From positions 17,632,817-17,696,816 of the forward strand of contig CM039466.1 in assembly GCA_022414725.1 (NCBI GenBank): a stretch of DNA of 64,000 bases. The letters are read 5' to 3'. The position numbers were made by a program, and so were the translations under genes. Under the pieces are notes generated by a model. That model worked only from the letters and a program-made list of their open reading frames with translations. It did not search any database and was not told the DNA's origin. The stretch is from Microglena sp. YARC (lineage: Eukaryota > Chlorophyta > Chlorophyceae > Chlamydomonadales > Chlamydomonadaceae). Of the stretch, positions 8,789-60,744 are shown in pieces; position 1 is the first letter of the stretch; the number at the start of each line of letters is the position of its first letter.

Positions 8789-8837
8789 GATGGTAGAAAA
8801 GGAGATGGCCTCTGAGGATGTACAACGGAGAATTCAG
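8708..8837 (+). CDS. ARGLU1: ARGLU1-like protein, exon 3 (start of the conserved coiled coil)
   Basis: After the acceptor CATTGCCCAG the exon contributes one base to finish the split codon, then 43 codons ending at a GTAGCG donor in phase 0. The product QLAQLEEEVLRNVEEAVTKM followed by VEKEMASEDVQRRIQ follows the conserved ARGLU1 block as I know it (the LEEE-RVEEAV-K-VEE-SE-V---IQRRL region), a charged helical coiled coil. It is the most recognisable part of the gene. Four tandem partial copies of this exon precede it. ARGLU1 homologues act in the nucleus in splicing and transcription; here that role is inferred from similarity. Confidence 0.8.
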
Positions 8838-10680
8838 GTAGCGGTACATTTCACATGTGATTTATGATTGAATGTACATCAGGACTGCTCCCCAGATGTG
8901 GCAGTACATAATTAGATGTCTGAATTGTGTAGTTTCTTTAATGTTGTTTTAGGTTTCTTCTTGAATCAAGTTGAACGTTTGACTTCTGTACAAGTCAAAA
9001 AGGGATATTGAATTTGTTTTGTTGCTTATAGAATTAAGTAGAACGTTTGACTTCGGTGCACTTTTTTGTTGGAGTGGGCGCTCAGGATTCGTTTTGAATT
9101 TGTTTTGTTGCTCTTAGAAAAACATTGCTCGGTTGTTTGTTGAATCAAGTTGAACGTTTGACTTCGGTAAAAGTGAAAGAGGACTTAAGAATTTAGAATT
9201 TTTTTTGTTGCTTTTTGAATCAAGTTGAACATTTGGCTTCGGTACAAGTGAAAGTGGAATTTTGGATTTTTAATTTTGATTTTGTTTAGTTGCCTTTTGA
9301 ATCAAGTAGAACGTTTGGCATGGGTTCACTTTTTTGTTCCAGAGGAGCTGGCGCTCAGAATTTGTTTTGAATTTGTTTTGTTGCTCTTAGAAAAACTTTG
9401 CTCCGTTGTTTGTTGATTTGAGTTGAACGTTTGACTTCGGTACACTTTTTTTTTTTAGAGGAGCAGGCGCTTAGGATTCGTTTTGAATTGTTTTGTTGCT
9501 CTTAGAAAAACATTGTCCTGTTGTGTGTTGAATCAAGTTGAACGTTTGAATTCGGTACAAGTGAAAAAGGACTTTTGAATTTTGAAATTTGAATTTGTTT
9601 CGTTGTTTTTTGAAACCAGTAGAATGTTTGACTTCGGTACACAATTTTTTTCTTTTTTAGAGGAGCGGATGCTCAGGATTCGTTTTGAATTTGTTTTGTT
9701 GCTCTGAGAAAAACTTTGATCCGTTGTTTGTTGAATCAAGTTGAATGCTTGACTTCGGTAGAAGTGAAAGAGGACTTTTGAAATTTGAATTTTGAGTTTG
9801 GTTTGTTGCTTTTTGGATCAAGTTGACCGTTTGACTTCGGTACACTTTTTGTTTTTAGAGGAGCAGGCGCTTAGGACTTGTTTTGAATTTGTTTTGTTTC
9901 TTGTTGAATCAATTTGAACCACCGACTTCAGGAACGATCGAAAGAGGAGGGAGCATTTGAGTATTTAAAAGTCGCTTTTGGGGTCATTTGTGGGCTTATT
10001 CATGATTTTTTTTCTTCTGTTGCTTGTTGAAGCAATTTGAACCACCGGCTTCAGGTGCGATCGAAAGAGGAGGGAGCATTTTAGTATTTAAAAGTCGCTT
10101 TTGGGGTCGTTTGTGGGCTTAAACATGATATTTTAAATGTTTTTTTTTTTTTCTTCCGTTGCTTATTGAATCAATTTGAACAACCGACTTTGGGTGCAAT
10201 TGAAAGAGGAGCGAGCAGTCAAGTCTTGTTTTGATTTTGTTTGTCGCTTGTTGAATAATTTTGTTTTGTTTCTTGTTGAATCAATTTGAATCGCCGGCTT
10301 CAGGTGCGATTGAAAGAGGAGAGGGCGCTCAGTTATTTGTTTTAGTTTGTTTTGTTGCTTTTTGAATCTAGTTGTTTTCCTTCAGGTGCGATTGAAAGAG
10401 GAGCGAGCATTTAAGTATTTAAAAGTCGCTGTTGGGCCATTTGTCCTGTTTGTTTTGGCTGTTGGCCTTTTTTTCCTGTTTGATTTGGCCTGTTTGTTGA
10501 CTTGTTTTGAGTTTGTTTCGTTTCTTGTCGAATCAATTTGAACCACCATCTTCAGGTGCGATTGAAAGAGGAGCGAGCATTTAAGTGTTTTATAGTGGCT
10601 TTTAGCCCGTTTGTGGGCTTGAAATGGTATTTTTAGTTTGTTTCATTGCTTGTCGAGTAAATTTGAACCACCCCCTTCAG
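8838..10680 (+). repeat. Intron 3: degenerate repeats built from the exon 4 acceptor region
   Basis: From about 8,960 onward a 100-170 bp phrase recurs roughly a dozen times: TTGTTGCTTxTTGAATCAAxTTGAAC, then CTTCGG or CTTCAGGTGCGATTGAAAG, then AGGAGCGAGCA. The later copies (9,900-10,620) contain TTCAGGTGCGATTGAAAGAG, identical to the true junction at 10,671-10,690, while earlier copies are progressively more diverged (TTCGGTACAAGTGAAAGAGG). The whole intron therefore looks like serial tandem duplication of the intron 3/exon 4 junction. Confidence 0.8.
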
Positions 10681-11075: not shown

Positions 11076-11128
11076 TAGAGTGGAGGAAGGTGGGGGTAGG
11101 AGGGGTAAGAGATGGGGGTTCAGATTGT

Positions 11129-11568
11129 GAGGGAGCAAGTGAGTATTCAGCTGGACACCGAGCGGATGCGCTTGAAAGAGGAGCGAGCACGCTTCGAGGA
11201 ACAAGTGAGTGCTCAGCTGGACACCAAGTGGGCTGCCATGTTGGAGAAGAAGAGAAAGGAGCAGGTGGGCTAGGTCAATGTTGTGCCTTTGTGAGGGGTA
11301 GAATGATGGGGAATCCGTTCGCCTGGTGGGTGCAAGGAATGTAGAGGAAGGGTTGTAGAGTGAAGGAGGGTGGGGGGGTGTAAGGATGTACAGTGATGGA
11401 GGGAGGGTGGGTGAAAGGGTGTGAAGTGAAGGAGGGGGGGGGGGGGGGGGGGGGGGGGGGAGGGGGGTAAGGGATGGGTTCAGGTTGTGAGGGAGCAAAT
11501 GAGTGCTCAGGTGGACAATGAGCGCTCTGCCCTGTTGGAGAAAAAGAGGAAGGAGCAGGTGGGTTAAG
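11129..11568 (+). pseudogene. Partial duplicate copies of exon 4
   Basis: Two segments repeat exon 4: 11,131-11,267 (GAGCAAGTGAGTATTCAGCT through GAGAAGAAGAGAAAGGAGCAG and a GTGGGC donor, containing an internal rearranged repeat of the exon) and 11,496-11,559 (through GAGGAAGGAGCAG and GTGGGT). They carry substitutions such as GTGAGT in place of GTCAGT and lack a clear acceptor, so they are most likely decayed exon duplicates rather than used exons. Confidence 0.75.
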
Positions 11569-11768
11569 TAATGATAACGCCTGGTGGGGTGTTGTATTTA
11601 AGGATCCCTGTCTTACGGCGGTAGGGAACGGGCTGGTACCTTACCTGGGCAAGCTGCCATGGCGGTTGACAGCGACCGCATGCACTTAAGAGCACCCGTG
11701 GGGATACGAACCCGGCACCCGAACCGTTCAAGGAGCTCTGCCATTGAGCATTCGTCCAAAACGGGGAT
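11567..11768 (-). mobile_element. tRNA-derived SINE, copy 1
   Basis: Flanked by a perfect 13-bp target duplication AGCAGGTGGGTTA (11,554-11,566 and 11,769-11,781). On the minus strand it begins with a tRNA-like head containing an A-box-like TGGCAGAGC and a B box GGGTTCGTATCCC, the internal RNA polymerase III promoter of SINEs, followed by an unrelated body (CGGTCGCTGTCAACCGCCAT, AAGGTACCAGCCCGTTCCCT). A second copy of the same body is at 31,788-31,956. The insertion sits exactly at the donor of an exon 4 duplicate. Confidence 0.85.
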
Positions 11769-12497: not shown

Positions 12498-12557
12498 GAA
12501 GAGGTGAAGCGAAAGCAAGAGGAGCTGAACCGGATTTTGTCTGAGAACAAACGCAAG
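12498..12557 (+). CDS. ARGLU1: ARGLU1-like protein, exon 5 (source of the large array)
   Basis: A 60-bp exon (20 codons, phase 0) between acceptor CTTGCAG and donor GTAGGT reads EEVKRKQEELNRILSENKRK. ARGLU1 proteins have at this point a K-EELERMLEENRRKVEE-type sequence, so the match is good. Its 3' half (AACCGGATTTTGTCTGAGAA, then CAAACGCAAG) is the recognisable ancestor of the 15-bp satellite that fills the next 16 kb. A degenerate copy with its own donor follows at 12,857-12,895. Confidence 0.78.
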
Positions 12558-12790
12558 GTAGGTGGGTGGGTGTAGTGGGTGGGGGGGAGTGGATGGGGGG
12601 ATGTAGTGTGGGTGGGTGGGTGTAGTGGGTGGGGGGGAGTGGATGGGGGGATGTAGTGTGGGTGGGTGGGTGTAGTGGGTGGGGGGGAGTGGATGGGGGA
12701 TGTAGTGTGGGTGGGTGGGTGTAGTGGGTGGGGGGGAGTGGATGGGGGGATGTAGTGTGGTGGGTGGGTGTAGTGGGTGGGGGAGTGGGT
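12558..12790. repeat. G-rich minisatellite at the start of intron 5
   Basis: About five copies of a 55-60-bp unit, GTGGGTGGGTGTAGTGGGTG followed by GGGGGGAGTGGATGGGGGGA and TGTAGTGTGG. The first copy begins inside the GTAGGTGGGTGG donor, so again the repeat grows from an exon edge. Confidence 0.9.
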
Positions 12791-12856
12791 GGGTGAAGTT
12801 TGTGTCTTAGCATGCTTCCCACGAGATAAAAAAGCATGTGACCAACAAGGCGCGTT

Positions 12857-12912
12857 GAACATAGCTGAACCGGTTTTGTCTGAAAAACAAGCGCAAGGTG
12901 GGTTATCCCGGG
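12857..12912 (+). pseudogene. Degenerate duplicate of the 3' half of exon 5 with splice donor
   Basis: CTGAACCGGTTTTGTCTGAA, then AAACAAGCGCAAG and GTGGGTTATCC reproduce the end of exon 5 with a base lost in ATTTTG and an extra A. The following GTGGGTTATCC is the same intron start found at the far end of the 16-kb array (29,169-29,179), showing that the array arose between two copies of this exon-intron boundary. Confidence 0.8.
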
Positions 12913-13028
12913 AGGCCGTGAGGAAGTTTTGTAATCTACCTTACCCCACACACCCATCCCCCCCCAAAAGCCCAAACCTCCTTCAGGAATTATAATTAGG
13001 GGTCAAATTAGGGTCTAGTGATCCCCTC

Positions 13029-16000
13029 GAACCTGAACCAGATTTGTCTGATTGTCTGAACTGAAAACTCTTTGTCTGAAAACTCTTTGTCTGAAAAACT
13101 CCTCTGTACCAGATTTTTCTTAAAAACTCTTTGTCTGAAAATTTGTCTGAAAACTCTTTGATGTCTGTACAGATTTTGTCTGAAAACTCTTTGTTGAAAA
13201 CTCTTTGTTGTACCCTGAAAACTCTTTGTCTTTTCTGAAAACTCTTTGTCTGAAAACCTTTGTCTGTACCAGATTTTGTCTGAAAACTCTTTGTTGAAAA
13301 CTCTTTGTCTGTACCAGATTTTGTCTGAAAACTCTTTGTCTGAAAAAACTCTTGTCGTGTACCAGATTTTGTCTGAAAACTATTTGTCTGAAAACCTCTT
13401 TGTCTGTACAGATTTTGTCTGAAAACTCTTTGTCTGAAAACTCTTTGTCTGCCTGACAGTGAAAACCCTTTGTCTGAAAACTCAGATTTTGTCTGAAAAC
13501 TCTTGTCTGAAACTTTTGTCTGAAAACTGTAAGATTTTGTCTGAAAACTCTTTGTTGAAAACTCTTTGTCTGTACAGATTTTGTCTGAAAACTCTTTGTC
13601 TGAAAACTCTTTGTCTGAAAACTCTTTGTCTGTACCAGATTTTGTCTGAAAACTCTTTGTCTGAAAACTCTTTGTCTGAAAACTCTTTGTCTGTACTCAG
13701 ATTTGTTCTCTGAAAATTTTGTCTGAAAACTCTTTGGTCTGAAAACTCTTTGTCTGTGAGAAAACTTTTGTCTTAAGATTTTGTCTGAAAACTCTTTGTC
13801 TGAAACTCTTTGTCTGTAAGAACTTTTGTCTGAAAATTTTGTCTGAAACTCTTTGTCTGAAACTCTTGTCTGTACCAGATTTTTGTCTGAAAACTCTTTG
13901 TCTGAAAACTCTTGTCTGAAAACTCTTTGTCTGTACCAGATTTTGTCTGAAAACTCTTTGTCTGAAAACTCTTTGTCTGTACCAGATTTTGTCTGAAAAC
14001 TCTTTGTCTGAAACTCTTTGTCTGAAAACTCTTTGTCTGTACAGATTTTGTCTGAAAACTCTTTGTCTGAAAACTTTGTCTGAAACTCTTTGTCTGAAAA
14101 CTCTTTGTCTGATTTTGTCTCTTTGTCTGAAACTCTTGTCTGAAAACTCTTTGTCTGTACCAGATTTTGTCTGAAAACTTTTGTCTGAACTCTTTGTCTG
14201 TACCAGATTGTCTGAAAACTCTTTGTCTGAAACTCTTTGTCTGAAAACTCTTTGTCTGTACCAGATTTTGTCTGAAAACTCTTTGTCTGAAAACTCTTTG
14301 TCTGTACCAGATTTTGTCTGAAAACTCTTTGTCTGAAAACTCTTTGTCTGTACCAAGACTTTTGTCTGAAAACTCTTTGTCTGAAAACTCTCTTTGTCTG
14401 AAAACTCTTTGTTCTGTACAGATTTAGTCTGAAGAACTTTTGTCTGAAAACTCTTTGTCTGAAAACTCTTTTGTCTGTACCAGATTTTGTCTGAAAACTC
14501 TTTGTCTGAAAACTCTTTGTCTGTGAGAAACCTCAGATTTTGTCTGTGAAACTCTTTGTCTGAAAACTCTTTGTCTGTACCAGATTTTGTCTGAAAACTC
14601 TCTTTTGTCTGAAAACTCTTTGTCTGTACCAATTGTTGTCTGAAAAAACCTCTTTTGTCTGAAACTTTGTATCTTTGTCTGAAAACTCTTTGTCCTGTAC
14701 CAGATTTTGTCTGTAAAACTCTTTGTCTGAAACTCTTTGTCTGAAAACTCTTTGGTCTGTACCAGATTTTGTCTGAAACTCTTTGTCTGAAAACTCTTTG
14801 TCTGAAACTCTTTGTCTGTACCAGATTTTGTCTGAAAACTCTTTGTCTGAAAACTCTTTGTCTGTAACCAGATTTTTGTCTGAAAACTCTTTGTCTGAAA
14901 ACTCTTTGTCTGAAAAAACTCTTTGTCTGTACCAGATTTTTGTCTGAAAACTCTTTGTCTGAAAACTCTTTTGTCTGTACCAGATTTTTGTCTGACTCTT
15001 TGTCTGAAAACTCTTTGTCTGAAAACTCTTTGTCTTCTTTGTCTGTCCAGATTTTGTCTGAAAACTCTTTGTCTGAAAACTCTTTGTCTGTACAGATTTT
15101 GTCTGAAAACTCTTTGTCTGAAAACTCTTTGTCTGTACCAGATTTTGTCTGTAAAACTTTGTCTGAAAACTCTTTGTCTGTCTTTGTACAGATTTTGTAC
15201 CAGATTTTGTCTGAAAACTCTTTGTCTGAAAACTCTTTGTCTGTAACTGCTTTGTCTCCAGATTTTGTCTGAAAACTCTTTGTCTGAAAACTCTTTGTCT
15301 GAAAAACTCTTTGTCTGTAACCAGATTTTGTCTGAAAACTCTTTGTCTGAAAACTCTTTGTCTGTAACCAGAGTTTTGTCTGAAAACTCTTTGTCTGAAA
15401 ACTCTTTGTCCTGTACCAGATTTGTCTGAAAAAACTCTTGTCTGAACTTTGTCTGAAAACTTTGTCTGTACCAAATTTGGTCTGAAAAATGCTTTGTCTC
15501 CCCCCCGAAAAACTTTTTGTGGAAAAAACTCTTTGTCTGTACCAGATTTTGTCTGAAACTTCTTTGTCCTAAACTCTTTGTGAAAAGCTAAAGATTTTGC
15601 TGACTCTTCTGTCTGAACTCTTTTGTCTGTGACTCAGATTTTTGTCTGAAAACTGCTTTGTCTGAAACTCTTTGTCCTTGGTGCTAAAAACCTTTGTCTG
15701 AAAATTCTTTGTCTGTACCCAGATTTTGTCTGAAAACTCTTTTGTCTTAAAAAACCTTTGTCTACAGATTTTGTCTGAAACTCTTTTCTAAAACCTCTTG
15801 GTCTGAAAACTCCTTTGTGCTGTAACCAGACTTGAAGAACTTTTGTCTGAACTCTCTTGTGTTGAAAACTCTTTGTCTGTCCAGATTTGTCTTGAAAACC
15901 TCTTTTCTGAAAAACTCTTTTGTCGGTACCCAGATTTGTCTGAAAGCCTTTGTCTGAAACTCTTTTGTCTGAAACTCTTTGTCTGAGATTTTTTGTCTGA

Positions 16001-19000
16001 AAAATTCGTGAGTAAGACTCTTTGTCTGAAAGCTTTTGTTGTCAGATTTTGGGAAAACTACCTCTTGTCCTGAAAAATTCTTTGTCTGTACCAGATATTT
16101 GTCTGTAAACTCTTTGCGAAAACTTTGTCTGAAACTCTTTGTCTGTACCAGATTTTGTCTAGAACTCTTTGTCTGAAAACTCATTTGTCTGTTACCGAGT
16201 TGTTGTCTGAAAACTCTTTTCTGGTCTGTACCCAGATTTGTCTGAAAACTCTTTGTCTGAAACTCCTCTTGTGTCTGTACCAGGATTTTGTCTGAAAACT
16301 TCTTTGTTCTGAAACTTCTTTGTCTGGTACCAGATTTTGTCTGAAAACTGCTTTGTCTGAAAAACTCTTGTCTGAAAACTCTTTGTCTGTACCAGATTTT
16401 GTCTGAAGAAATCTTGTCTGAAAACTCTTTGTCTGCTAAGATTTTGTCTGAAAACTCTTTGTCTGGAAACTCTTTTTTGTCTGTACCAGCATTTTGTCTG
16501 AAACTTCTTTGTCGTGAAACTCTTTGTCTGTACCCAGATTTTTGTTCTAAAACCTTTATTGTCTGAAAACCTCCTTTGTCTGAAAACTCTTTGTCTGTAC
16601 CTAGATTTTGGGTCTGAAAAACTCTTTGTCTGAACTTCTTTTGTCTGTACCGAGATTTTTCTGAAAACTCTTTGTCTGAATAACCATCTTGTCTGTACAG
16701 AATTTTTGTCTGAAAACTCTTTTGTCTGACAAACTCTTTGTCTGTACCGAATTTTGTGTCCTGAAAACTTTTGTCTGAAACCTCTTTGTCTGAAAAATCT
16801 TTGTCTGTACCATGATTTTGGTCTGAAAACTCTTTTGTCTGAAAACTCCTTTGTCTGTACCCAGGATTTTGTTGAAAACTCTTTGTCTGAAAACTCTTTG
16901 TCTGTTACGCGAGATTTTGTCCTGAAACTCTTTGTCTGAAAAGTCTTTGGTCTGAAAACTCTTTGTCTGATACCAGATTTTTGTCTGAAAACTCTTCTGT
17001 CTGTAAAATCTTTTTGTGCTGAAAACTCTTTTGTCTGTAACCAGATTTTTGTCTGAAAACTCTTTTGGTCTTGAACTCTTTGTCCTGTAACCAGATTTGT
17101 CTGAAAACTCTTTGGTCTGAAACTCTTTGTCTGTACCAGATTTTGTCTGAAACTCTTTGTCTGAAAACTCTTTGTCTGTACACAGAATTTTGTCTGAAAA
17201 TCTTTGTCTGCTAACCTTTTTGTCTGAAAAACTACTTTGGTCCTGAAAAAACTATTGAAAACTCTTTTGTCTGTACCAGATTTTGTGAAACTCTGAAAAA
17301 CTCTTTTGTCTGAAAACTCTTTGTCTGAAATTGTTTTTTTTTTTTTTACCAGAATTATTGTCGTTTTTGTCTGTACTTTGTTCTGTACCAGATTTTGTAT
17401 GAAAAGACTCTTTGTCTTGTTTTGTCTGCTTTGTGACTCTTTGTCATTGAAACTCTTTGTTGTACCAGCACGAGCAAGATTTTGGTCTGAAAACTCTGTT
17501 GTCTTGAAACTCTTTGTCCTGACCCTTTGTCTGAAAACTCTTTCGTACCTGTTTGGTCTGAACTCTTTGTCCTGAAAACTCTTTGTCTGTTAACAGATTT
17601 TGTCTGGACTCTTTGTCTTGAAAAACTCTTTGTCTGAAACTCTTTGTCCTGAAAATCTTTGTCTGTACGAGATTTTTGTCGTGAAAACTCTCTTTGTCTG
17701 AAAAACTCTTTGTCTTGTAAAACTCTTTGATCTGTACCAGATTTTTGTTTGTTGAAAACTCTTTGTCTGAAACCATCTTTGTTTACCAGATTTTTCTGAA
17801 AACTCTTTTGTCTGAAAACTCTTTGTCTGTACCGATTTTGTCTGAAACTCTTTGTCTGAAAAACCTCTTTGTCGGTACCAGCAAAGCTCTTGTGTCTGAT
17901 GAACCACTCTTTGTCTGAAAAAACTCTTTGTTGTACCAGATTTGTCATGAAAACTCTTGTCTGAAAACTGCTTTTGTCTGTAAAACTCTTTGTCTGTACA
18001 GACGTCTTTGTTCTGATCTGAAACACTCTTTTGTTCTGAAAACTCTTTTTGTCTGTACGCAGATTTTGTCTGGAAAACTCTTTTGTCCTGAAAACCTCTT
18101 TGTCTGAAAATCTTTGTGTGTACCAGACTCTTTGTCTGATCTCTTTGTCTGAAAATAACCAGTTTTGGTCCTGAAAACTCTTTGTCTGTACCAGATTTGG
18201 TCTTGAAAACTCCTTTTGTCTGAAAAACTCTTTGTCTGTAGCCAAGATTTTGTCTGGAAACTCTTTGTCTAAAACTCTTTGTACTGTACCAGATTCCCCT
18301 TGTCTGAAACTCTTTCGTCTGAAACTCTTTTGTCTGAAAACTCTTGTGTACCCAGATTTTGTCTGAAAACCTTTGTCTGAAAAACTCTGTTCATACCAGA
18401 TTTTTGTCCTGAAAATCTTTGTCTGAAAACTCTTGGTCTGTACCAGATTTTGTCTTGAAAACTCTTTGTCTGAAAACTCTTTTGTTGAAAATTCTTTGTC
18501 TGTACCAGATTTTGTCTGAAAATCTTTGTCTGAAAACTTTGTCTGAAACCTCTCTTTGTCTTACCATTTGTGCTGAAAATCCTCTTGGTCTGAAAACTCT
18601 TTGTTCTGAAACTCTTTGTCCTGTCCAGATTTTTGTCTGAAAACTCTTTGTCTGAAATCCTTTTGTCTGAAAACTCTTTGTCTGTACCATATTTTCGTCG
18701 TGTCCTGAAAATTCTTCTTTTGTTCTGAAACTCTATTGTCTGTACCGAGATTTTGTCTGAAAATCTTGGATCTTGAAAAGCTTTTCCTTGTCTGTACCCA
18801 GATTTTGTCTGAAAACTCTTTGTCTGAAAAACTCTTGTCGTGTATCCAGATTCTGGTCTTGAAAACTCGTACAGAGTGTCTGAGAAACTCATTTGTCTTG
18901 TCTGAAAACTCTTTTCTGTACGCAGATTTTGTCTGAAAACTCCTTTGTCTGAAAACTTTTTGTCTTGTACCAGAGGTTTTGTTCTTAGAAACTCTATGAT

Positions 19001-22000
19001 CTGAAGAACTCTATTTGTTCTGTACCAGATGTTTGTCTGAAACTCTTTGTTGAAACTCTGGTCTGAAAACTCTTTGTCTTGTGGACCAGTTTGTCTGAAA
19101 CTCTTTGTGAAAACTCTTTGTCTAACTCTTTGTCTGTACCAGATTTTTGGTCTGAAACACCTTCCTTTGGGTGCTGAAAATACTTTGTCCTCTGAAAACT
19201 CTTTGTCTCTTGCTTACCAGATTTTGTCTGAAAACTCTTTTGTCTGAAAACCTCTTGTTGAAAACTTCTTTTGTCGTACCAGATCTTGTCTGAAAACTCT
19301 TTGTCTGGGAAAACTCTTAGTGTCTGTTACCAGATTTTGTCTGAAGAACTTCTTTTCTTGAAAACCATCTCTGGTGGAAAACTCAATTTGTCTAGATACC
19401 AGATTTTGTGCTGGCCATAACTATACTTTTTCTGAAAAAACATACTTTTACTGTACCAGATTTTGTCTGAACTCTTTTGTCTGAAATTCTTTGTCTGAAA
19501 ACTTCTTTGTCGAAACTCCTTTGTCTGAAACTCACTAAATATTCTGTACCGATTTTCTGTCTGAACTCTTTGTCTGAAAACTCTTTTCTGAAACTCTTTG
19601 TCTGATACCAGATTTGTCGAAAACTGCTATTGTCTGAAAACTCTTTTGGTTCTGTACCAGATTTTGTCCTGAAAACTCTCTTGCTCTGAAAACTCTATTG
19701 ATTCTGAAAACTCTTTGTCTGTAAAATCTCTTGTCTGAAAACATCTTTGTCGTTGAAAACTCTCTTGTCTGAAAACTCTTTTGTCTTGTTACCGACTTTT
19801 TGTTCTGAAACTCTCTTTAGTCTGAAACTCTTTGTCTGAAACTTTCTGTTTACCAGATTTGTTGAAAACTCTTGATCTGAAAACTTCTTTGTCCTGCTCA
19901 CCATATTTTTGTCTGAAAACTTCTTTTGTCTAAATACTCTTGTGTCTGTACCAGTATTTTGTCTGAAATCTTTGTCTGAAAACTCGTTTGTCTTTACCAG
20001 ATTTTTGTCTGAAAACCTCTTGTCTGGAAAAACTCTTTGTCTGTAAAACTCTTTGGTTCCTGTTACCAGATATTTTGTCCTGAAAACGTGGCTTTGTTGA
20101 AAAACTACTTTGTCCTGTACCAGATTTTTGGGTCTGAAAACCTCTTGCCTAAAAACTCTTCTGTCTGGAAAACCACTCTTTGTCTACGCTAACCAGATTA
20201 TTGCTCTGACTCTTTGGTCTGAAACTCCTTTGTCTGAAAACTCTTTTGTCTGTACCGAGATTTTTGTCTGAAAAACTCTTTGTTGAAAACTCTTTGTCTG
20301 TACGCAGATATGTTCTGAAAAACTCTTTGTCTGAAAACTCGTATTGTCTGAAAACTATCTTGTCATGTACCAGATTTGTCTGAACCTTTTGTCTGAAAAC
20401 TCTTTGTGCTGTACGCAGATTTGTCTTTTGAAACTCCTTTGGTCTTGGAAACTCCATTGTCTGTACAGATTTTTTTGTCTTGAAAAACTCTTGTCTGAAA
20501 AACTCTTGTCTGAAACTCTTTGTTCATGTACCAGACTTTTTGTCTGAAAACTCTTTTGTGGAAACTGTTGTCTGATACCAGATTTTGGTCTGAACGAAAC
20601 TCTTTGTCCTGCTGATTTTGTCTGGAAAACTCTCTTGCAAAAACTCTGTTCTGAAAAAACTCTTCTGTCTGTACCCAGAATTTTCGTCTTGAAAACTCCT
20701 CTTGCTGAAAACTCTTTCTGGGAAAAACTTTGTCTGTGTACCAGATTTTGGTCTGTCTTGAAAACTCTATTGTCCTGAAAACTCTTTGTCTGAACTCTTT
20801 GTCTGAAAACTCTTGTCTGTACGCAGTTTATGTCTCTTTGTCTGAAAACTCTTTGTCCTGAAAACTTTTGTCTTACCTTTGTCTGAACTCATTTGATAAA
20901 AAAACTCAGATCTTTGTCTGAAAACAACTTCTTGTCTGAAAACTCTTTGTCTGTTCCGAGATTTCTAGTTGCTTGTGCCTGAAAACTCTTTTGTCTGGAA
21001 AAACTAGCTACTCTTTGGTCTGTACAGAGTCCCCTTTCCTTCTCTGGCGAAACTCGCTTTGTCTGAAATCGTTTGTGGGTACAGAATTTCTGCTCTGAAA
21101 CTCATTTGTCGAAAATCTTGGTCTGTACTGTCTTGAAATTTTGTTCTTGGAAAACTCTTTGTGTCCTCATTGAAAACTTCTTGAACTGTCTTGTACCAAG
21201 ACTTTTGTCTGAAAACTCTTTGTCTGAAAACTCTTTTGTTTGAAAACTCTTTTGTCTGAAAACTGCTTTGTTGAAACTCCTTTTGTCGGTGTACAGGGAA
21301 TTTTTCGTCTGTGAAAACTCTGAAAACCTTTGTCCTGAAAATCTTTGTCTGACAACTCTTTGGTCTGTACCAGATTTTGTCTGAAAACTTCGTGTCTGTC
21401 TGAAAACTGCTTTGTCGGTACCATGAATTTTGTCTGAAAACTCTTTGAAAACTCGTCTGAAATCTTTGTCTGAAAACTCTTTGGTCTGAAACTCCTTTGT
21501 CTGAAACTCTTTTGTCGTGAAACTTCTTTCTGTACCAGATTTTTTGTCTTTGTCTGAAAATCTGTTGTTGTAAGATTTTATGTTTGAAAACTCTTTGAAA
21601 ACTCTGAAAACTCTTTGTCTGTACCAGATTTTGTCTGAAACTCTTTGTCTGAAAACTCTTTGTCTGTACCAGATTTTTGTCTGAAAAACATCTTTGTCTG
21701 AAAACTCTTTGTCTGTAACCAGATTTTGGCTTTGTCTGAAAACCTCTTTGTCTGAAAACCTCCTTTGTCTGTACCAAGATTTTGTCTGAAAACTCTTTGT
21801 CTGAAAACTCTTTGTCTGAAAACTCTTTGTCTGTACCAGATTTTGTCTGAAAAACTCTTTGTCTGAAAACTCTTTGTCTGTACCAGATTTTGTCTGAAAA
21901 CTCTTTGTCTGAAAAACTCTTTGTCTGTACCAGATTTTGTCTGAAAACTCTTTGTCTGAAAACTCTTTGTCTGTACCAGATTTTGTCTGAAAACTCTTTG

Positions 22001-25000
22001 TCTGAAAACTCTTTGTCTGAAAACTCTTTGTCTGTACCAGATTTTGTCTGAAAACTCTTTGTCTGAAAACTTCTTTTCTCTTTGTCTGAAAACTCTTTGT
22101 CTGTACCAGATTTTGTCTGAAAACTCTTTGTCTGAAAACTCTCTTTTGTCTGAAAATTTGTCTGAAAACTCTGTCTGTACCAGATTTTTCTGAAAACTCC
22201 TTTGTCTGAAAACTCTTTGTCTGTACCAGATTTTGTCTGAAAAACTCTTTGTCTGAAACCTTTGTCTCTTTGTCTGAAAACTCTCCACTGAAAACTTTGT
22301 CTGTACCAGATTTTGTCTGAAAACTCTTTGTCTGAAAACTCTTTGTCTGTAACCAGATTTTTGTCTGAAAACTCTTTGTCTGAAAACTCTTTGTCTGTAC
22401 CAGATTTTGTCTGAAAACTCTTTGTCTGAAAACTCTTTGTCTGAAACTCTTTCTCTGTACCAGATTTTGTCTGAAAACTCTCTTTGTCTGAAAACTCTTT
22501 GTCTGTACCAGATTTTGTCTGTGTCTGAAAAACTCTTTGTCTGAAAACTCTTTGTCTGTACCAGATTTTGTCTGAAAACTCTTTTTGTCTGAAAACTCTT
22601 TGTCTGTACCAGATTGTTGTCTGAAAACTCTTTGTCTTTTTGAAAACTCTTTGAAACTCTTTGTCTGTACAAATTTTGTCTGAATAAGCTCTTTGTCTGA
22701 AAACTCTTTGTCTGAAAACTCTTGTCTGTACCCTTGTCTGAAAACTCTTTGTCTGAAAACTCTTTGTCTGTACCATTTTGTCTGAAAACTCTTTGTCTGA
22801 AAACTCTTTTGTCTGAAAACTCTTTTGTCTGTACCAGATTTTGTTCTGAAAACTCTTTGTCTGAAAACTCTTTGTCTGTACCAAGATTTTGTCTGAAAAC
22901 TCTTTGTCTGAAAACTCTTTTGTCTGAAAACTCTTTGTCTGTACCAGATTTTGTCTGAAAACTCTTTGTCTGTCTTTGTCTGAAAACTCTTTGTCTGTAC
23001 CAGATTTTGTCTGAAAACTCTTTGTCTGAAAACTCTTTGTCTGTAAGATTTTGTCTGAAAAACTCTTTTTGTCTGAAAACTCTTTGTCTGTACCAGATTT
23101 TGTCTGAAAACTCTTTGTCTGAAAACTCTTTGTCTGTACCAGATTTTGTCTGAAAATCCTGAAAACTCTTTGTCTGAAAACTCTTTGTCTGTACCAGATT
23201 TTTGTCTGAAAACTCTTTGTCTGTGTCTGAAAACTCTTTGTCTGTACCAGATTTGTCTGAAAACTCTTTGTTCTGAAAACTCTTTGTCTGAAAACTCTTT
23301 GTCTGTACCAGATTTTGTCTGAAAACTCTTTGTCTGAAAACTCTTTGTCTGAAAACTCTTTGTCTGTACCAGATTTGTCTGAAAACTCTTTGTCTGAAAA
23401 CTCTTTGTCTGTACCAGATTTTGTCTGAAAACTCTTTGTCTGAAAACTCTTTGTCTGTACCAGATTTTGTCTGAAAACTCTTTGTCTGAAAACTCTTTGT
23501 CTGTACCAGATTTTGTCTGAAAACTCTTTGTCTGAAAATTAAAACTGTCAGTTTTGTTGAAAACTCTTTGTCTGATTTTGTCTGAAAACTCTTTTGTCTG
23601 AAAACTCTTTGTCTGAAAACTCTTTGTCTGTACCAGATTTTGTCTGTGTCTGAAAACTCTTTGTCTGAAAACTCTTTGTCTGTACCAGATTTTGTCTGAA
23701 AACTTTTGTCTGAAAACTCTTTGTCTGAAAACTCTTTGTCTGTACCAGATTTTGTCTGAAAACTCTTTGTCTGAAAACTCTTTGTCTGTACCAGATTTTT
23801 GTCTGAAAACTCTTTGTCTGAAAACTCTTTGTTGTCAATTTTGTCTGAAAACTCTTTGTCTGAAAACTCTTTGTCTGTACCATTTTTGTCTGAAAAAACT
23901 TTTGTCTGAAAACTCTTTGTCTGAAAACTCTTTTTGTCTGTACTTTGTCAGATTTGTCTGAAAACTTTTGTCTGAAAACTCTTTGTCTGAAAACTCTTTT
24001 GTCTGAAACTCTTTGTCTGAAAACTCTTTTGTCTGACTCTTTGTCTGAAAACTCTTTGTCTGAAAACTCTTTGTCTGTACCCAGATTTTGTCTGAAAAAC
24101 TCTTTGTCTGAAAACTCTTTGTCTGAAAACTCTTTGTCTGTACCAGATTTTGTCTGAAAACTCTTTGTCTGAAAACTCTTTGTCTGAAAACTCTTTGTCT
24201 GTACCAGATTTTGTCTGAAAACTCTTTGTCTGAAAACTCTTTGTCTGTACCATTTTGTCTGATTTTTGTCTGAAAACTCTTTGTCTGAAAACTCTTTGGT
24301 CTGAAAACTCTTTGTCTGTACCAGATTTTGTCTGAAAACTCTTTGTCTGAAAACTCTTTGTCTGTACCAGAGAAAATTTGTCTGAAAACTCTTTGTCTGA
24401 AAACTCTTTGTCTGTACCAGATTTTGTCTGAAAACTCTTTGTCTGAAAACTCTTTGTCTGAAAACTCTTTGTCTGTACCAGACTTTTGTCTGAAAACTCT
24501 TTGTCTGAAAACTCTTTGTCTGTACCAGATTTTGTCTGAAAACTCTTTGTCTGAAAACTCTTTGTCTGTACCAGATTTTGTCTGAAAACTCTTTGTCTGA
24601 AAACTCTTTGTCTGTACCAGATTTTGTCTGAAAACTCTTTGTCTGAAAACTCTTTGTCTGAAAACTCTTTGTCTGTACCAGATTTTGTCTGAAAACTCTT
24701 TGTCTGAAAACTCTTTGTCTGTACCAGATTTTGTCTGAAAACTCTTTGTCTGAAAACTCTTTGTCTGTACCAGATTTTGTCTGAAAACTCTTTGTCTGAA
24801 AACTCTTTGTCTGTACCAGATTTTGTCTGAAAACTCTTTGTCTGAAAACTCTTTGTCTGAAAACTCTTTGTCTGTACCAGATTTTGTCTGAAAACTCTTT
24901 GTCTGAAAACTCTTTGTCTGTACCAGATTTTGTCTGACTCTTTGTCTGAAAACTCTTTGTCTGAAAACTCTTTGTCTGTTACCAGATTTTGTCTGAAAAC

Positions 25001-28000
25001 TCTTTGTCTGAAAACTCTTTGTCTGTACCAGATTTTGTCTGAAAACTCTTTGTCTGAAAACTCTTTGTCTGAAAACTCTTTGTCTGTACCAGATTTTGTC
25101 TGAAAACTCTTTGTCTGAAAACTCTTTGTCTGAAAACTCTTTGTCTGTACCAGATTTTGTCTGAAAACTCTTTGTCTGAAAACTCTTTGTCTGTACCAGA
25201 TTTTGTCTGAAAACTCTTTGTCTGAAAACTCTTTGTCTGTACCAGATCTTTGTCTGAAAACTCTTTGTCTGAAAACTCTTTGTCTGTACCAGATTTTGTC
25301 TGAAAACTCTTTGTCTGAAAACTCTTTGTCTGTACCAGATTTTGTCTGAAAACTCTTTGTCTGAAAACTCTTTGTCTGTACCAGATTTTGTCTGAAAACT
25401 CTTTGTCTGAAAACTCTTTGTCTGTACCAGATTTTGTCTGAAAACTCTTTGTCTGAAAACTCTTTGTCTGAAAACTCTTTGTCTGTACCAGATTTTGTCT
25501 GAAAACTCTTTGTCTGAAAACTCTTTGTCTGTACCAGATTTTGTCTGAAAACTCTTTGTCTGAAAACTCTTTGTCTGAAAACTCTTTGTCTGTACCAGAT
25601 TTTGTCTGAAAACTCTTTGTCTGAAAACTCTTTGTCTGTACCAGATTTTGTCTGAAAACTCTTTGTCTGAAAACTCTTTGTCTGTACCAGATTTTGTCTG
25701 AAAAACTCTTTGTCTGAAAACTCTTTGTCTGAAAACTCTTTGTCTGTACCAGATTTTGTCTGAAAACTCTTTGTCTGAAAACTCTTTGTCTGTACCAGAT
25801 TTTGTCTGAAAACTCTTTGTCTGAAAACTCTTTGTCTGAAAACTCTTTGTCTGTACCAGATTTTGTCTGAAAACTCTTTGTCTGAAAACTCTTTGTCTGT
25901 ACCAGATTTTGTCTGAAAACTCTTTGTCTGAAAACTCTTTGTCTGTACCAGATTTTGTCTGAAAACTCTTTGTCTGAAAACTCTTTGTCTGAAAACTCTT
26001 TGTCTGTACCAGATTTTGTCTGAAAACTCTTTGTCTGAAAACTCTTTGTCTGTACCAGATTTTGTCTGAAAACTCTTTGTCTGAAAACTCTTTGTCTGTA
26101 CCAGATTTTGTCTGAAAACTCTTTGTCTGAAAACTCTTTGTCTGAAAACTCTTTGTCTGTACCAGAAAATTTTGTCTGAAAACTCTTTGTCTGAAAACTC
26201 TTTGTCTGTACCATTTGTCTGATTTGTCTGAAAACTCTTTGTCTGAAAACTCTTTGTCTGTACCAGATTTTGTCTGAAAACTCTTTGTCTGAAAACTCTT
26301 TGTCTGTACCAGATTTTGTCTGAAAACTCTTTGTCTGAAAACTCTTTGTCTGAAAACTCTTTGTCTGTACCAGATTTTGTCTGAAAACTCTTTGTCTGAA
26401 AACTCTTTGTCTGAAAACTCTTTGTCTGTACCAGATTTTGTCTGAAAACTTTTGTCTGAAAACTCTTTGTCTGAAAACTCTTTGTCTGTACCAGATTTTG
26501 TCTGAAAACTCTTTGTCTGAAAACTCTTTGTCTGTACCAGATTTTTGTCTGAAAACTCTTTGTCTGAAAACTCTTTGTCTGTACCAGATTTTGTCTGAAA
26601 ACTCTTTGTCTGAAAACTCTTTGTCTGTACCAATTTTGTCTGAAAACTCTTTGTCTGAAAACTCTTTGTCTGAAAACTCTTTGTCTGTACCAGATTTTGT
26701 CTGAAAACTCTTTGTCTGAAAAACTCTTTGTCTGTACCAGATTTTGTCTGAAAACTCTTTGTCTGAAAACTCTTTGTCTGTACCAGATTTTGTCTGAAAA
26801 CTCTTTGTCTGAAAACTCTTTGTCTGAAAACTCTTTGTCTGTACCAGATTTTGTCTGAAAACTCTTTGTCTGAAAACTCTTTGTCTGTACCAGATTTTGT
26901 CTGAAAACTCTTTGTCTGAAAACTCTTTGTCTGTACCAGATTTTGTCTGAAAACTCTTTGTCTGAAAACTCTTTGTCTGTACCAGATTTTGTCTGAAAAC
27001 TCTTTGTCTGAAAACTCTTTGTCTGTACCAGATTTTGTCTGAAAACTCTTTGTCTGAAAACTCTTTGTCTGTACCAGATTTTGTCTGAAAACTCTTTGTC
27101 TGAAAACTCTTTGTCTGTACCAGATTTTGTCTGAAAACTCTTTGTCTGAAAACTCTTTGTCTGAAAACTCTTTGTCTGTACCAGATTTTGTCTGAAAACT
27201 CTTTGTCTGAAAACTCTTTGTCTGTACCAGATTTTGTCTGAAAACTCTTTGTCTGAAAACTCTTTGTCTGAAAACTCTTTGTCTGTACCAGATTTTGTCT
27301 GAAAACTCTTTGTCTGAAAACTCTTTGTCTGTACCAGATTTTGTCTGAAAACTCTTTGTCTGAAAACTCTTTGTCTGAAAACTCTTTGTCTGTACCAGAT
27401 TTTGTCTGAAAACTCTTTGTCTGAAAACTCTTTGTCTGTACCAGATTTTGTCTGAAAACTCTTTGTCTGAAAACTCTTTGTCTGTACCAGATTTTGTCTG
27501 AAAACTCTTTGTCTGAAAACTCTTTGTCTGTACCAGATTTTGTCTGAAAACTCTTTGTCTGAAAACTCTTTGTCTGAAAACTCTTTGTCTGTACCAGATT
27601 TTGTCTGAAAACTCTTTGTCTGAAAACTCTTTGTCTGAAAACTCTTTGTCTGTACCAGATTTTGTCTGAAAACTCTTTGTCTGAAAACTCTTTGTCTGAA
27701 AACTCTTTGTCTGTACCAGATTTTGTCTGAAAACTCTTTGTCTGAAAACTCTTTGTCTGTACCAGATTTTGTCTGAAAACTCTTTGTCTGAAAACTCTTT
27801 GTCTGAAAACTCTTTGTCTGTACCAGATTTTGTCTGAAAACTCTTTGTCTGAAAACTCTTTGTCTGTACCAGATTTTGTCTGAAAACTCTTTGTCTGAAA
27901 ACTCTTTGTCTGAAACTCTTTGTCTGAAAACTCTTTGTCTGAAAACTCTTTGTCTGAAAACTCTTTGTCTGAAAACTCTTTGTCTGAAAACTCTTTGTCT

Positions 28001-29168
28001 GAAAACTCTTTGTCTGTACCAGATTTTGTCTGAAAACTCTTTGTCTGAAAACTCTTTGTCTGTACCAGATTTTGTCTGAAAACTCTTTGTCTGAAAACTC
28101 TTTGTCTGAAAACTCTTTGTCTGAAAACTCTTTGTCTGAAAACTCTTTGTCTGAAAACTCTTTGTCTGTACCAGATTTTGTCTGAAAACTCTTTGTCTGA
28201 AAACTCTTTGTCTGAAAACTCTTTGTCTGTACCAGATTTTGTCTGAAAACTCTTTGTCTGAAAACTCTTTGTCTGTACCACATTTTGTCTGAAAACTCTT
28301 TGTCTGAAAACTCTTTGTCTGAAAACTCTTTGTCTGTGATCTTTGTCTGAAAACTCTTTGTCTGAAAAACTCTTTGTCTGTACCAGATTTTGTCTGAAAA
28401 CTCTTTGTCTGAAAACTCTTTGTCTGAAAACTCTTTGTCTGATTTTGTCTGAAAACTCTTTGTCTGAAAACTCTTTGTCTGTACCAGATTTTGTCTGAAA
28501 ACTCTTTGTCTGAAAACTCTTTGTCTGAAAACTCTTTGTCTGTACCAGATTTTGTCTGAAAACTCTTTGTCTGAAAACTCTTTGTCTGTACCAGACTCTT
28601 TGTCTGAAAACTCTTTGTCTGAAAACTCTTTGTCTGAAAACTCTTTGTCTGTACCAGATTTTGTCTGAAAACTCTTTGTCTGAAAACTCTTTGTCTGAAA
28701 AACTCTTTGTCTGTACCAGATTTTGTCTGAAAACTCTTTGTCTGAAAACTCTTTGTCTGTACCAGATTTTGTCTGAAAACTCTTTGTCTGAAAACTCTTT
28801 GTCTGTACCTTTTGTCTGAAAACTCTTTGTCTGAAAACTCTTTGTCTGAAAACTCTTTGTCTGAAAACTCTTTGTCTGAAAACTCTTTGTCTGATTTGTC
28901 TGAAAACTCTTTGTCTGAAAACTCTTGTCTGTCTTTGTCTGAAAACTCTTTGTCTGAAAACTCTTTGTCTGAAAACTCTTTGTCTGTACCAGATTTTGTC
29001 TGAAAACTCTTTGTCTGAAAACTCTTTGTCTGTACCAGATTTTGTCTGAAAACTCTTTGTCTGAAAACTCTTTGTCTGTACCAGATTTTGTCTGAAAACT
29101 CTTTGTCTGAAAACTCTTTGTCTGAAAACTCTTTGTCTGAAAACTCTTTGTCTGAAAACAAACGCAAG
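13029..29168 (+). repeat. 16.1-kb satellite array of an exon 5-derived 15-bp monomer
   Basis: Two 15-bp monomers alternate: A = TTTGTCTGAAAACTC and B = TTTGTCTGTACCAGA (usually plus one T). They are arranged as A-A-B (46 bp) and A-A-A-B (61 bp) higher-order units, with occasional longer A runs (27,890-28,010 and 28,078-28,165). At the left edge the array begins GAACCTGAACCAGATTTGTC, at the right it ends TTTGTCTGAAAACAAACGCA then AG and GTGGGTTATCC, that is, exon 5 sequence plus donor. By length it holds on the order of one thousand monomers. Homogeneity varies: near-perfect from about 24,400 to 28,270, good from 21,600 to 24,400, and very noisy, with many single-base indels, from about 15,480 to 21,590. 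No monomer has a stop on the minus strand, which creates open frames up to 1,739 codons that should not be read as genes. Confidence 0.97.
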
Positions 29169-30190
29169 GTGGGTTATCCTTTATAGATATAGTATATTTG
29201 TATTTTTATTACAACAAGGATTTGCCACATGGCAACACTCCTCACGCCAAGGTCCTTGCCTAACGCCAAGGTCCAAGGTTGGCAGTTGTGGTACAAGGTC
29301 GGTTCCTAGCCCAGGAACTCGGCAAAACAGGTCCTGACAGTGGACCGCCATGCTTCAGGTAGGCCTTATGGCGCGAAATTAGGCCACGCATCACTACGAA
29401 TTCCACCGCAAGAGGGGGTTCGTACTTTTCCCAAGTTGTGGGTTCTTGTCTCGGAAGGTGGGTTATCTCTTATTTATTTGTATTATTAGCACCACAAGGA
29501 TTTTCGCCCCAAAGGGTGCACTAGCCTTAAACTCAAGGGTTTTGTTGATGTGACTCGGCAGAGCCACTCCCACAAAATTTAATTGTGCGATTTCAGTGCG
29601 ATTTGATCATTTAATTGTGTGAACCTTGTCGCCTTTTTAAATATTTTACATAAGTGAGGGAGTATCTCCATAGATGCCTAAGTCTTGGTCAGCTCGAATC
29701 GCATGGCTTTAGCCTATGGCCTCCGGTCCCAAGACAAATATATGTTGGCATAAAGTTGCCCAACCACATCAGTTAAATATATAAATCATAGGCTATCGCG
29801 CTCAAAGCGAATTCCATTCAAATAAAAAGAAGGTAGACCTATAGCTTACATCTTCCTTTACAAGTCATGGTGATGGCAGGTTATGGGAGATGGTGTACAG
29901 GCGGTACGGCAGTACAATAGCCAAAATCACTGATTATTTGCATTTGTTCGGTGTCCTGAGTCATGTACGTAGCTGTGGAGAAATCACCAATCAGAACCGA
30001 ATGGGTCAGTGGCAGAGCTAAGGGGAAATAGCGAGGCAGGTGCGGGGTTCGACCCCCCTTGAGCACGTCCTTAGAGGTCATTGTGACAATTCTTGGATGT
30101 TTAAATTTTCAATTTTTTTTAGCTGCGGAGAAACTTGGAAACAGGTTACTACATGTTGCCATTCTGGGTTAAATGAAAAACGTACATGGT
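29169..30190. other. Intron 5, segment right of the array
   Basis: Mostly unique sequence. A GGTGGGTTATC phrase seen at the array edge recurs at 29,458-29,470 with similar following bases (TTATTTATTTGTATTATT), so this flank was also duplicated once. A plus-strand segment at about 30,000-30,056 has tRNA-like boxes (TGGCAGAGC and GGGGTTCGACCCCC) but does not fold as a complete tRNA by eye; it may be a SINE head fragment. No exon was recognised. Confidence 0.55.
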
Positions 30191-30547: not shown

Positions 30548-30720
30548 ACATGTTCCTTTTAAGGGGGCATTTTCTGTATTCTCTGTATTTTTCTGTATTT
30601 TTCATATCTCCTACTGATGTCTCCTTCTCATGCCTCCTATCAGTTGGAAGAGGCCCATCCACCACCACCATCACCCACCCACCCACCCACCCACCCACCC
30701 ACCCACCTACCACCTATCAG

Positions 30721-30780
30721 TTGGAAGAGGCCCAACTTCGTGCTACGCAAGAAAGAGAGAAGCGAGAGGAGCAGTGGAAG
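30721..30780 (+). CDS. ARGLU1: ARGLU1-like protein, exon 6 (last exon identified)
   Basis: A 60-bp, 20-codon exon in phase 0 after acceptor CACCTATCAG and before a GTGGCA donor: LEEAQLRATQEREKREEQWK. It continues the charged helix of exon 5 (SENKRK then LEEAQLR), as in the family where ENRRKVEEAQRR-type sequence follows directly. A truncated copy of the acceptor and first codons lies at 30,640-30,660 just upstream, and four degenerate copies follow. The conserved C-terminus of ARGLU1 (a KSRPKLSF-type motif) was not found downstream, so the 3' end of the gene is missing, unrecognised or displaced. Confidence 0.7.
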
Positions 30781-31195
30781 GTGGCATCTGATCTCAGGGC
30801 TGCTACAACTGCACAGCGATGGTAGCTGGCTGGTAGCTGCTTAAGAGAGGGAGAAGGGAGAAGAGCAGCGAAAGGTGGCATCTGATATCAGGGCTGCTAC
30901 AACTGCACGACAATGGTAGCTGGCTGGTAGCTGCTTAAGAGAGGGAGAAGGGAGAAGAGCAGCGAAAGGTGGATTCTGATATCAGGGCTGCTACAACTGC
31001 ACAACAATGGTAGCTGGCTGGTAGCTGCTCAAGAGAGGGAGAAGCGAGAGGAGCAGTAGAAGGTGGCATCTGATATTAGGGCTGCTACAACTGCACGATG
31101 ATGGTAGCTGGCTGGTAGCTGCTCAAGAGAGGGAGAAGCGAGAGGAGCAGTGGAAGGTGGCATCTGATATTAGAGCTACTACAACTGCACAACTA
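30781..31195 (+). repeat. 94-bp tandem repeat carrying the 3' part of exon 6
   Basis: After the true exon, four more copies of GAGAGGGAGAAGCGAGAGGA, GCAGTGGAAG, GTGGCATCTGAT, then GGGCTGCTACAACTGCAC and TGGTAGCTGGCTGGTAGCTG follow. The GTGG donors fall at 30,781, 30,874, 30,969, 31,063 and 31,157, a 93-95-bp step. Each copy has the end of exon 6 and its donor but no acceptor. Confidence 0.92.
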
Positions 31196-31787: not shown

Positions 31788-31956
31788 TTGCCTGGTGGGG
31801 CGTGGTTTTAAGGGAGCCCCGTCTTACGGCGGTAGGGAACGGGCTGCTACTTTACCTGGACAAAGCTACCATGGCGGTTGACAACGACCGCTAACACTAA
31901 ATCGCAACCCGTGGGGATTCGAACCCGGCAACTTCTTCGCTCTTTCTAGGAGCTGG
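31788..31956 (-). mobile_element. tRNA-derived SINE, copy 2
   Basis: Same body as the element at 11,567-11,768 (GCCTGGTGGGG, TCTTACGGCGGTAGGGAACG, CATGGCGGTTGACARCGACC). It is bounded by a perfect 13-bp target duplication GTGTGGTGTAGTA (31,775-31,787 and 31,957-31,969). On the minus strand the B box GGGTTCGAATCCC is intact (about 31,914-31,926), but the A box is missing, so the head is 5'-truncated relative to copy 1. Confidence 0.87.
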
Positions 31957-32696: not shown

Positions 32697-33639
32697 CGGG
32701 GTTCATTAGCATGATAGTCATTGATAACCCAATCAATCAATCATCCCCGATTCATAATTTATAATTAAAAACCCTTCAGACTAAAAGGGGCATTCCATCA
32801 CGAAGTGCTTCATCCTCTCCTAGTCTCCTATCTTCAACCACCGTATCACAGCACCTACAGTACATAAATAAGTCACGGCACTCATTAAGTAATTTGTGCG
32901 ATTCCTGCATCTATATCTACATTCTAATATCCTAGATTTATTCTGTATATATTCTATATCTACATCGCCACTCATCACTCTTCTTGGCACATATGGCACC
33001 ATCTTCTCCTCAATCGACACCAATGACCAATCTAGTGACTCTCGGCGTCCCCTCCCCCAAACTCCCGTCTCTCCGCTCACTCCATGTCCATGCTGTCCAC
33101 GTTGCCCACTCCCTCGTTGTTACCCTTCGCCCACTCACCCTGCCCGTACCCCCCGTATGACCCACCATAGCTTGCACCGGCTTGCACTGTCTTGGTGTGA
33201 TCCTGTTACTGCCGTCCGGTACCACGTTCCCTAAAGGGGCGGCGAAAAGGATCGGCGGTAGGGTGGAGTAGGTCAGAGTAATAAGCCTACCGGCGCTCAT
33301 TTCATCTTTAAGATCGCTTCAGTGCGGCTTGCTCTTTGCCCTCTTTGATGAGCGCAGCATCCACCTCCTGTATCTAAAGCCACGCATACTCGCGTTCTAT
33401 TTATTTCCTCTTTCTGGTACCTCGCGTATTCGTGTCCTCTGTCCCGCTCCATCCTTTTTATCCTGCGCTTCATCAGATCGATTTGTTGTCCTGCTTCTGC
33501 ATCGACCGGAGCCTTTTATTATTTTCCGCTGTCGAGGTGAGGGGGATCTTTGGAAGGACTAATCCCGATTCAAGGATTCAAATCGACGATATTGAGAAAG
33601 GCAGCGAATCCGTCCTTACAAGTACAGTCTGATAAGCGC

Positions 33640-34329: not shown

Positions 34330-34344
34330 GTAGGACGAGTTTGT

Positions 34345-46328: not shown

Positions 46329-46329
46329 G

Positions 46330-46933: not shown

Positions 46934-46935
46934 CT

Positions 46936-60699: not shown

Positions 60700-60744
60700 G
60701 TTTGTCTGAAATTATGTGAGATAATAATGTTGAGAATCTAACTT

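Follow-up and report, generated by a model that had tools for sequence, protein, structure and literature searches.

A long intronic tandem array in an ARGLU-like gene of Microglena sp. YARC and its probable descent from a duplicated exon border

The stretch analysed here, referred to as the window, comprises 64,000 nucleotides of the green alga Microglena sp. YARC (GCA_022414725.1, contig CM039466.1; C5:17,632,817-17,696,816). It contains an ARGLU-like gene in which a tandem array of about 16 kb lies between exons 5 and 6. When exons 3-6 are joined, they match the ARGLU domain (PF15346; 60.8 bits, profile positions 7-109 of 149). In window coordinates, these exons and the array are as follows.

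8,708-8,837, forward strand: exon 3, with its start as in EukProt model P0001
10,681-10,779, forward strand: exon 4
12,498-12,557, forward strand: intact exon 5 (EEVKRKQEELNRILSENKRK), which has its own GT donor and contributes to the ARGLU domain of the joined exons
13,029-29,168, forward strand: tandem array of 1,029 units of two types, A (CTGAAAACTCTTTGT) and B (CTGTACCAGATTTTGT), mostly in the order AAB or AAAB
30,721-30,780, forward strand: exon 6 (LEEAQLRATQEREKREEQWK)

The array is present in the assembly with the coordinates given in a preliminary description of this DNA, and graph alignment divides it into 752 A units of 15 bp and 277 B units of 16 bp. That description proposed amplification of an internal 15-mer between the two ends of an exon copy; the position of the amplified stretch is upheld, while a single 15-mer must be replaced by two alternating unit types, with a pyrimidine-rich TCTTTGTCTGTACCAG apparent at the A-to-B junction. 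Across the assembly (568,105,699 bases in 2,390 contigs), the 20-mer ACCAGATTTTGTCTGAAAAC occurs 111 times on the forward strand and 0 times on the reverse, and a 30-mer of two A units occurs 177 and 0 times; the window itself accounts for 111 and 177. Because all of these matches fall inside the window, the array is a single-locus product at the level of exact words, diverged copies being outside the scope of the search. Occurrence of the 15-bp repeat elsewhere in the genome, at older loci unrelated to the exon, had been named beforehand as grounds for abandoning an exonic origin, and the two exact words are confined to this locus. The array shares with satellite DNA a long head-to-tail run of near-identical units; the abundance at many loci typical of satellites was not seen for these two words in the 568-Mb assembly, a search that did not extend to diverged copies. 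With a single location found for the array, the earlier label "satellite" is loose, and we describe it instead as a very long intronic minisatellite. Neither do the two words show the near-identical copies at many genes that define introners, each being limited to one locus genome-wide.

The descent of the array can be read from its borders, which together with a nearby exon copy and the end of the array comprise the following features.

12,863-12,908, forward strand: degenerate donor-side copy of exon 5 with a GTGGGTTATCC donor
13,029-13,041, forward strand: left edge of the array, GAACCTGAACCAG, matching sequence from the middle of exon 5
29,085-29,168, forward strand: open stretch of 84 nt between the final CAG of the array and the donor, reading ILSEN(SLSEN)4KRK in the exon-5 frame; a possible pseudo-exon
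29,147-29,179, forward strand: right edge of the array, matching the end of exon 5 plus the donor GTGGGTTATCC (28 nt, 92.9%)

Both edges are as first described: the left is GAACCTGAACCAG, and on the right AAACAAACGCAAG ends at 29,168 and is followed by GTGGGTTATCC, so that the array terminates in TTTGTCTGAAAACAAACGCAAG and then the donor. The same donor word recurs after the degenerate exon copy, at 12,898, as had been noted. If the two edges are joined and the middle that they share is taken from the unit, the result corresponds to the 3' part of exon 5 and a donor, differing from exon 5 by two substitutions (TGAACC to AACGCAAG), and the left edge itself is missing one T. Within the 64-kb window, the match of the right edge to exon 5 plus donor has an E value of 5.8e-6, as does that of the copy at 12,863 to the exon-5 edge (42 columns, 88%), and none of five queried exons matched the reversed window at E 0.01.

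The internal unit is less informative. Its best plus-strand match outside the array is exon 5, with a score of 16, a value equalled or exceeded in 4 of 20 length-matched random Markov sequences. The array could accordingly be an independent intronic minisatellite that resembles exon 5 by coincidence. Against this, both edges continue into exon-5 sequence that is absent from the unit, the right edge ends in the same donor word as the 12,863 copy, and similar edge copies adjoin other exons of the same gene; we regard coincidence as very unlikely. The case for an exonic origin thus rests on the edges, since the internal unit alone can be reached by chance. An 18-of-20 match between a phrase of the repeat and exon 5, previously offered as the chief proof of origin, was counted correctly and is rejected in that role because random sequences score equally well. 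The proposed origin in a duplicated donor edge of exon 5 is itself supported by the edge matches and by the copy at 12,863.

The 15-bp unit preserves the exon-5 frame, and the open stretch at 29,085-29,168 is preceded by CAG and followed by GT. Together with the pyrimidine-rich TCTTTGTCTGTACCAG at the A/B junction, this raises the question of whether the array or its end is functional, either as a cassette pseudo-exon in the exon-5 frame or by offering decoy acceptors in its CAGs. However, the open frame of this last stretch follows from its descent, and once reading passes in the exon frame from an A unit into the 16-bp B unit, the frame shifts and a TGA is reached. Judged from the sequence, a functional pseudo-exon at 29,085-29,168 is unlikely, and for function of the array in either form we see only a slim chance.

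The array is not of uniform quality, and two parts of it differ strongly.

15,501-21,500, forward strand: core of the array, noisy and probably derived from unpolished long reads
24,501-29,159, forward strand: clean part of the array, with 4 substitutions in 4,669 columns

The clean part additionally has 28 deletions and 18 insertions over its 4,669 unit columns. In the core, insertions reach 10.3%, deletions 3.8% and substitutions 3.7% (580, 214 and 208 over 5,634 columns), and error levels in 13,061-15,500 and 21,501-24,500 are intermediate. The right border of the core is abrupt, the match being 0.894 before 21,561 and 0.990 after it. Deviations common to several core units are at chance level overall (1,008 observed against 989.0 expected, standard deviation (sd) 28.6), with some excess between immediate neighbours (z 3.5 at lag 1). 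At 13,061-15,500 there are 148 shared deviations against 145.1 expected, with one peak (z 4.5 at lag 3), while a peak in the clean part at lag 30 (z 7.4; 22 against 11.5, sd 5.5) may represent real duplicated variants. An excess of insertions is the signature of older PacBio reads. As the errors in the core are insertion-heavy and mostly private to single units, the core looks like uncorrected single-molecule read sequence, and true ageing of this part was rejected in favour of sequencing noise. Neither the decay of the core nor the exact length of the array is therefore evidence of age, and neither is to be trusted.

The same figures are what would be expected if the length, and perhaps much of the array, were an assembly artefact produced by expansion or collapse while noisy long reads were joined. 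The clean 24.5-29.2 kb part and the moderately clean 13.1-15.5 kb part, however, are each joined to unique flanks, and the AAB/AAAB order runs on through the noise from 15.5 to 21.5 kb, which indicates that the array is truly present in the core as well. We consider an artefact improbable as a general explanation: doubt attaches to the length of the array and hardly to its existence.

Exon 5 is not the only exon of the gene that is accompanied by copies of its own borders. In addition to those at exon 5, the following were found.

8,104-8,636, forward strand: 5' part of exon 3, copied four times upstream of it (153-bp tandem)
9,918-10,579, forward strand: six acceptor-side copies of the exon-4 edge
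11,132-11,571, forward strand: three copies of exon 4 on its downstream side, among them portions of 4b and 4c, which are open
30,633-30,657, forward strand: acceptor-side copy of the exon-6 edge
30,836-31,186, forward strand: four donor-side copies of exon 6 (94-bp tandem)

Own-edge copies thus adjoin four of the five queried exons (3, 4, 5 and 6), and all 20 copies are in direct orientation, a count from which matches starting within the array (13,051-29,139) were dropped. Exon 5 has two downstream copies, one of which is the array edge; exon 1 has no edge copy in the window. The exon-4 copies 4b (11,124-11,264) and 4c (11,484-11,558) are open and in frame, with CAG before and GT after, and are possibly extra coiled-coil exons.

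Comparable copies were sought around exons of two other gene families, CCT/TCP1 (11 loci) and the class-I tRNA synthetases (4 loci), each exon being compared with its own surroundings. We kept 52 of 64 CCT matches and 24 of 29 synthetase matches as exons. The other 12 and 5 were excluded; these were isolated or single-exon matches, lay on small contigs or were spaced far apart, and one of them contained eight stops. Among the 76 kept matches, some contain a stop, as when a match extends into an intron, and at least two overlap a neighbour in the profile (C5:39,358,262 and C5:33,108,387) and may themselves be copies. Copies were accepted at 40 bits within 3 kb; set aside were two CCT matches on other exons and, for the synthetases, two on other exons and seven beyond 3 kb.

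At least one intronic edge copy was present at 28 of 52 CCT and 21 of 24 synthetase exons (49 of 76), and 14 of the 15 loci have such copies; with the ARGLU-like gene included, the tally is 53 of 81 exons. All 212 intronic copies (117 CCT, 95 synthetase) are direct, and all lie on the side of the edge that they copy. Most of them (199 of 212) extend to the exon edge defined by the hidden Markov model (HMM), which is the edge of the family model rather than the exact splice site. The median distance of a copy in the CCT set is 260 bp. Identity between copy and exon ranges over 62-100% (median 86%), so assembly duplication of identical sequence is disfavoured as the main cause. Intermediate stages are also represented: one synthetase exon has 12 copies on its donor side, and a different one has 11 on its acceptor side. 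The exon-derived array had been presented as an isolated oddity, a view that is not supported, given edge copies at four of the gene's five queried exons and around 49 of 76 exons elsewhere.

Exon edges were also considered as special hot spots of duplication, an idea that we rejected on the following comparison. Of random non-exon segments from the same loci, 167 of 300 (CCT) and 192 of 300 (synthetase) have direct local copies, or 359 of 600 against 49 of 76 for exons, and 21 and 15 of 300 have inverted local copies. Matches of random segments to reversed sequence numbered 64 and 59, against 816 and 4,987 direct (CCT and synthetase, respectively), and exons searched against their own reversed loci gave none in the CCT set and one in the synthetase set. 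Tandem Repeats Finder (TRF) classified about 32% of the CCT loci as tandem repeat, ranging from 5% to 46% by locus. As random segments have direct local copies about equally often, local tandem duplication is general in the sampled loci and exons are not special targets; exons make it readable. Random segments lack the side rule of the exons (2,801 matches conforming and 2,186 not, synthetase set only), and it is the pattern that would remain where selection preserves an intact exon.

Beyond the chance-level match of the unit noted above, several points weigh against deriving the array and the other copies from duplicated exon edges. The evidence does not account for the origin of the TC linker in the array or of the T in CTGTACC. 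One of the 15 loci has no exon-edge copy, and in the CCT set 11 of 35 exon interiors (50 nt trimmed per side) also have local copies (23 matches), so that some copies reach deep into the exon. The nearest copy is more similar than the farthest in 26 of 39 exon sides, with 2 ties, and 16 of 24 correlations of copy identity with distance are negative (p = 0.09); the clear gradient of identity with distance from the exon, which would be expected if successive copies displaced earlier ones outward, is thus only a weak trend. Exons also match other loci of their family, 117 times for CCT (61 on an exon, 56 not) and 19 times for the synthetases (10 and 9). Finally, the survey covers two gene families of this genome only, without another eukaryote as control.

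The 56 and 9 matches outside exons at other loci would also be compatible with an origin of the copies by introner-like or retroposed insertion in place of tandem duplication, as would the occurrence of GTGGGTTATC three times in the window and the related tRNA-like stretches nearby with possible target-site duplications. Own-locus copies are nonetheless always direct and always on the matching side, and the array words occur at one locus. At least 36 of the 56 off-exon CCT matches, moreover, connect loci g4 and g5, the pattern that two paralogs, each with its own edge copies, should produce. Insertion as the source of the edge copies is extremely unlikely in our view. Tandem duplication, by comparison, predicts direct copies adjacent to their source, which describes 20 of 20 copies in the ARGLU-like gene and 212 of 212 within 3 kb elsewhere, and copies that span the border, which is seen in the 199 of 212 reaching the HMM-defined edge and in the exon-5 copies that include the donor.

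Based on these observations, the array is very probably the runaway product of local tandem duplication across the border of exon 5, a mutational by-product that is most likely spliced out. We infer the following order of events. Local tandem duplication would be frequent in this genome, and some duplicated stretches would span an exon-intron border. The copy still attached to the rest of the exon would remain coding and the other would turn intronic, so that introns would lengthen outward from the edges of their exons. In intron 5, the donor-side copy of exon 5 would have arisen first; inside it, a stretch of 13-20 nt (ACCAGATTTTGTCTGAAAAC) may have been duplicated again by slippage or unequal exchange to give the 15- and 16-bp units, for which CTGAACC and CTGAGAAC, 16 nt apart in exon 5, are a plausible starting point for slippage. 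Further slippage or unequal exchange would then have homogenised the units and amplified them, in a runaway fashion, until there were about 1,000. The array would most likely be removed with intron 5, as part of an intron of about 18 kb. As to how small tandem duplications form, in one described route Pol alpha-primase fills in breaks that have 3' overhangs (PMC8355091).

The array thus looks like the extreme end member of a process seen at most exons examined. More tentatively, introns in this genome may be built largely from tandem copies of neighbouring exon edges, genome-wide and as an ongoing process, with long single-locus arrays born from them, a generalisation that we find plausible and slightly short of probable. 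If it is correct, exons would provide a constrained yardstick against which tandem DNA could be followed, stage by stage, through its birth, decay and runaway amplification. The source of an array has usually decayed, whereas here it would be a coding exon, kept legible by selection, and a single genome would offer a series of one copy, a dozen and about 1,000. The birth of arrays and the growth of introns would then become testable by strain comparison and RNA sequencing.

Tandem duplication across exon-intron borders is described in single cases (PMC4974935), and a tally of intron-gain mechanisms is given in PMC3443670. The potato RdRp gene, as described by Ma et al. 2016 (PMC4974935), resembles the present case in that a direct duplication over an intron-exon boundary leaves one copy as exon while the other provides the intron and its splice signals. 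That account concerns a single recent event that created a new intron, whereas here the events recur at most exons examined, would mainly lengthen existing introns, and in one instance ran away. In fission yeasts, exon-derived short tandem repeats likewise become intron (Zhu & Niu 2013b, cited in PMC4974935), although according to that citation there are a few copies of a 24-bp exon segment containing AGGT, against about 1,000 units without AGGT here. The Drosophila Y genes kl-3 and kl-5 are reported to have long satellite arrays within introns (PMC6508621), as here; those are megabase simple satellites, in contrast to a one-locus array traceable to the adjoining exon. Lathyrus satellites derived from tandem repeats in long terminal repeat (LTR) retrotransposons are described as having a traceable seed array that later expanded (PMC7004042), the seed being a mobile element there and a coding exon here. 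Among the titles and abstracts covered, a set that most subscription journals fall outside, we found no report of genome-wide exon-edge copies or of a long exon-derived array. Within that literature, this density of edge copies in one genome, with a thousand-unit array at its end, has not been seen reported.

The identity of the ARGLU-like gene itself bears further comment. Human ARGLU1 has a C-terminal LGKG..RPKLSF motif. No motif of this type, and no C-terminal exon or 3' end of the gene, was found in the 64-kb window, beyond which the gene may continue. A profile search returned one other match, at C3:20.6 Mb (28.3 bits; cut-off 27), with one internal stop; since the search missed the window's own short exons, further ARGLU loci may exist. 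Near this match, tblastn identified ILGKGRTKLSFS (E 2.4e-4) and, weakly, MGRSRSRSRQRD (E 0.17), and the C-terminus at this locus resembles that of human ARGLU1. Because the C3 locus combines a weak ARGLU match with an ARGLU1-like C-terminus, sequence comparison suggests that the gene in the window may be a paralog. Weak tblastn matches suggest that the C3 locus (C3:20,576,001-20,616,000) contains exons of its own in several copies, of the RLELESRLVEEETAKRV and EEELAALEAARQ types.

EukProt P0001 contains exons 1, 3 and 4 of the window's gene. In P0002, copy 4b of exon 4 is linked to exon 5, inside which the model ends; to judge from such partial coverage, gene models stumble at this gene. A 59-aa ENA protein matches the query at 84% over 34% of the query's length, at exon 3.

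Several other features were noted in the window. Directly after the array, at 29,166-29,467, AAGGTGGGTTATC is repeated 289 bp apart, possibly marking an insertion at the array donor, which would account for the third GTGGGTTATC in the window. The stretches at 11,579-11,737 and 31,790-31,954 are related to each other and look like tRNA-derived short interspersed nuclear elements (SINEs); AGCAGGTGGGTTA at 11,554 and 11,769 is a possible target-site duplication. A Copia-type retroelement at 51,424-58,357, with integrase, gag_pre-integrase and Pol_BBD domains and 324-bp direct repeats that are 99.7% identical, interrupts a duplicated copy of 33,341-36,785. A second retroelement-like unit at 41,661-47,337 has 402-bp direct repeats at its ends (98.8% identical). 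An open reading frame (ORF) at 36,694-38,667 contains about five 37-residue repeats (TWLRVAKPKLPDFNAQ..NSLWAAAKLG) and has no Pfam match; its tail looks RNase H-like. On the reverse strand, an ORF at 60,082-60,711 encodes an LRAT domain.

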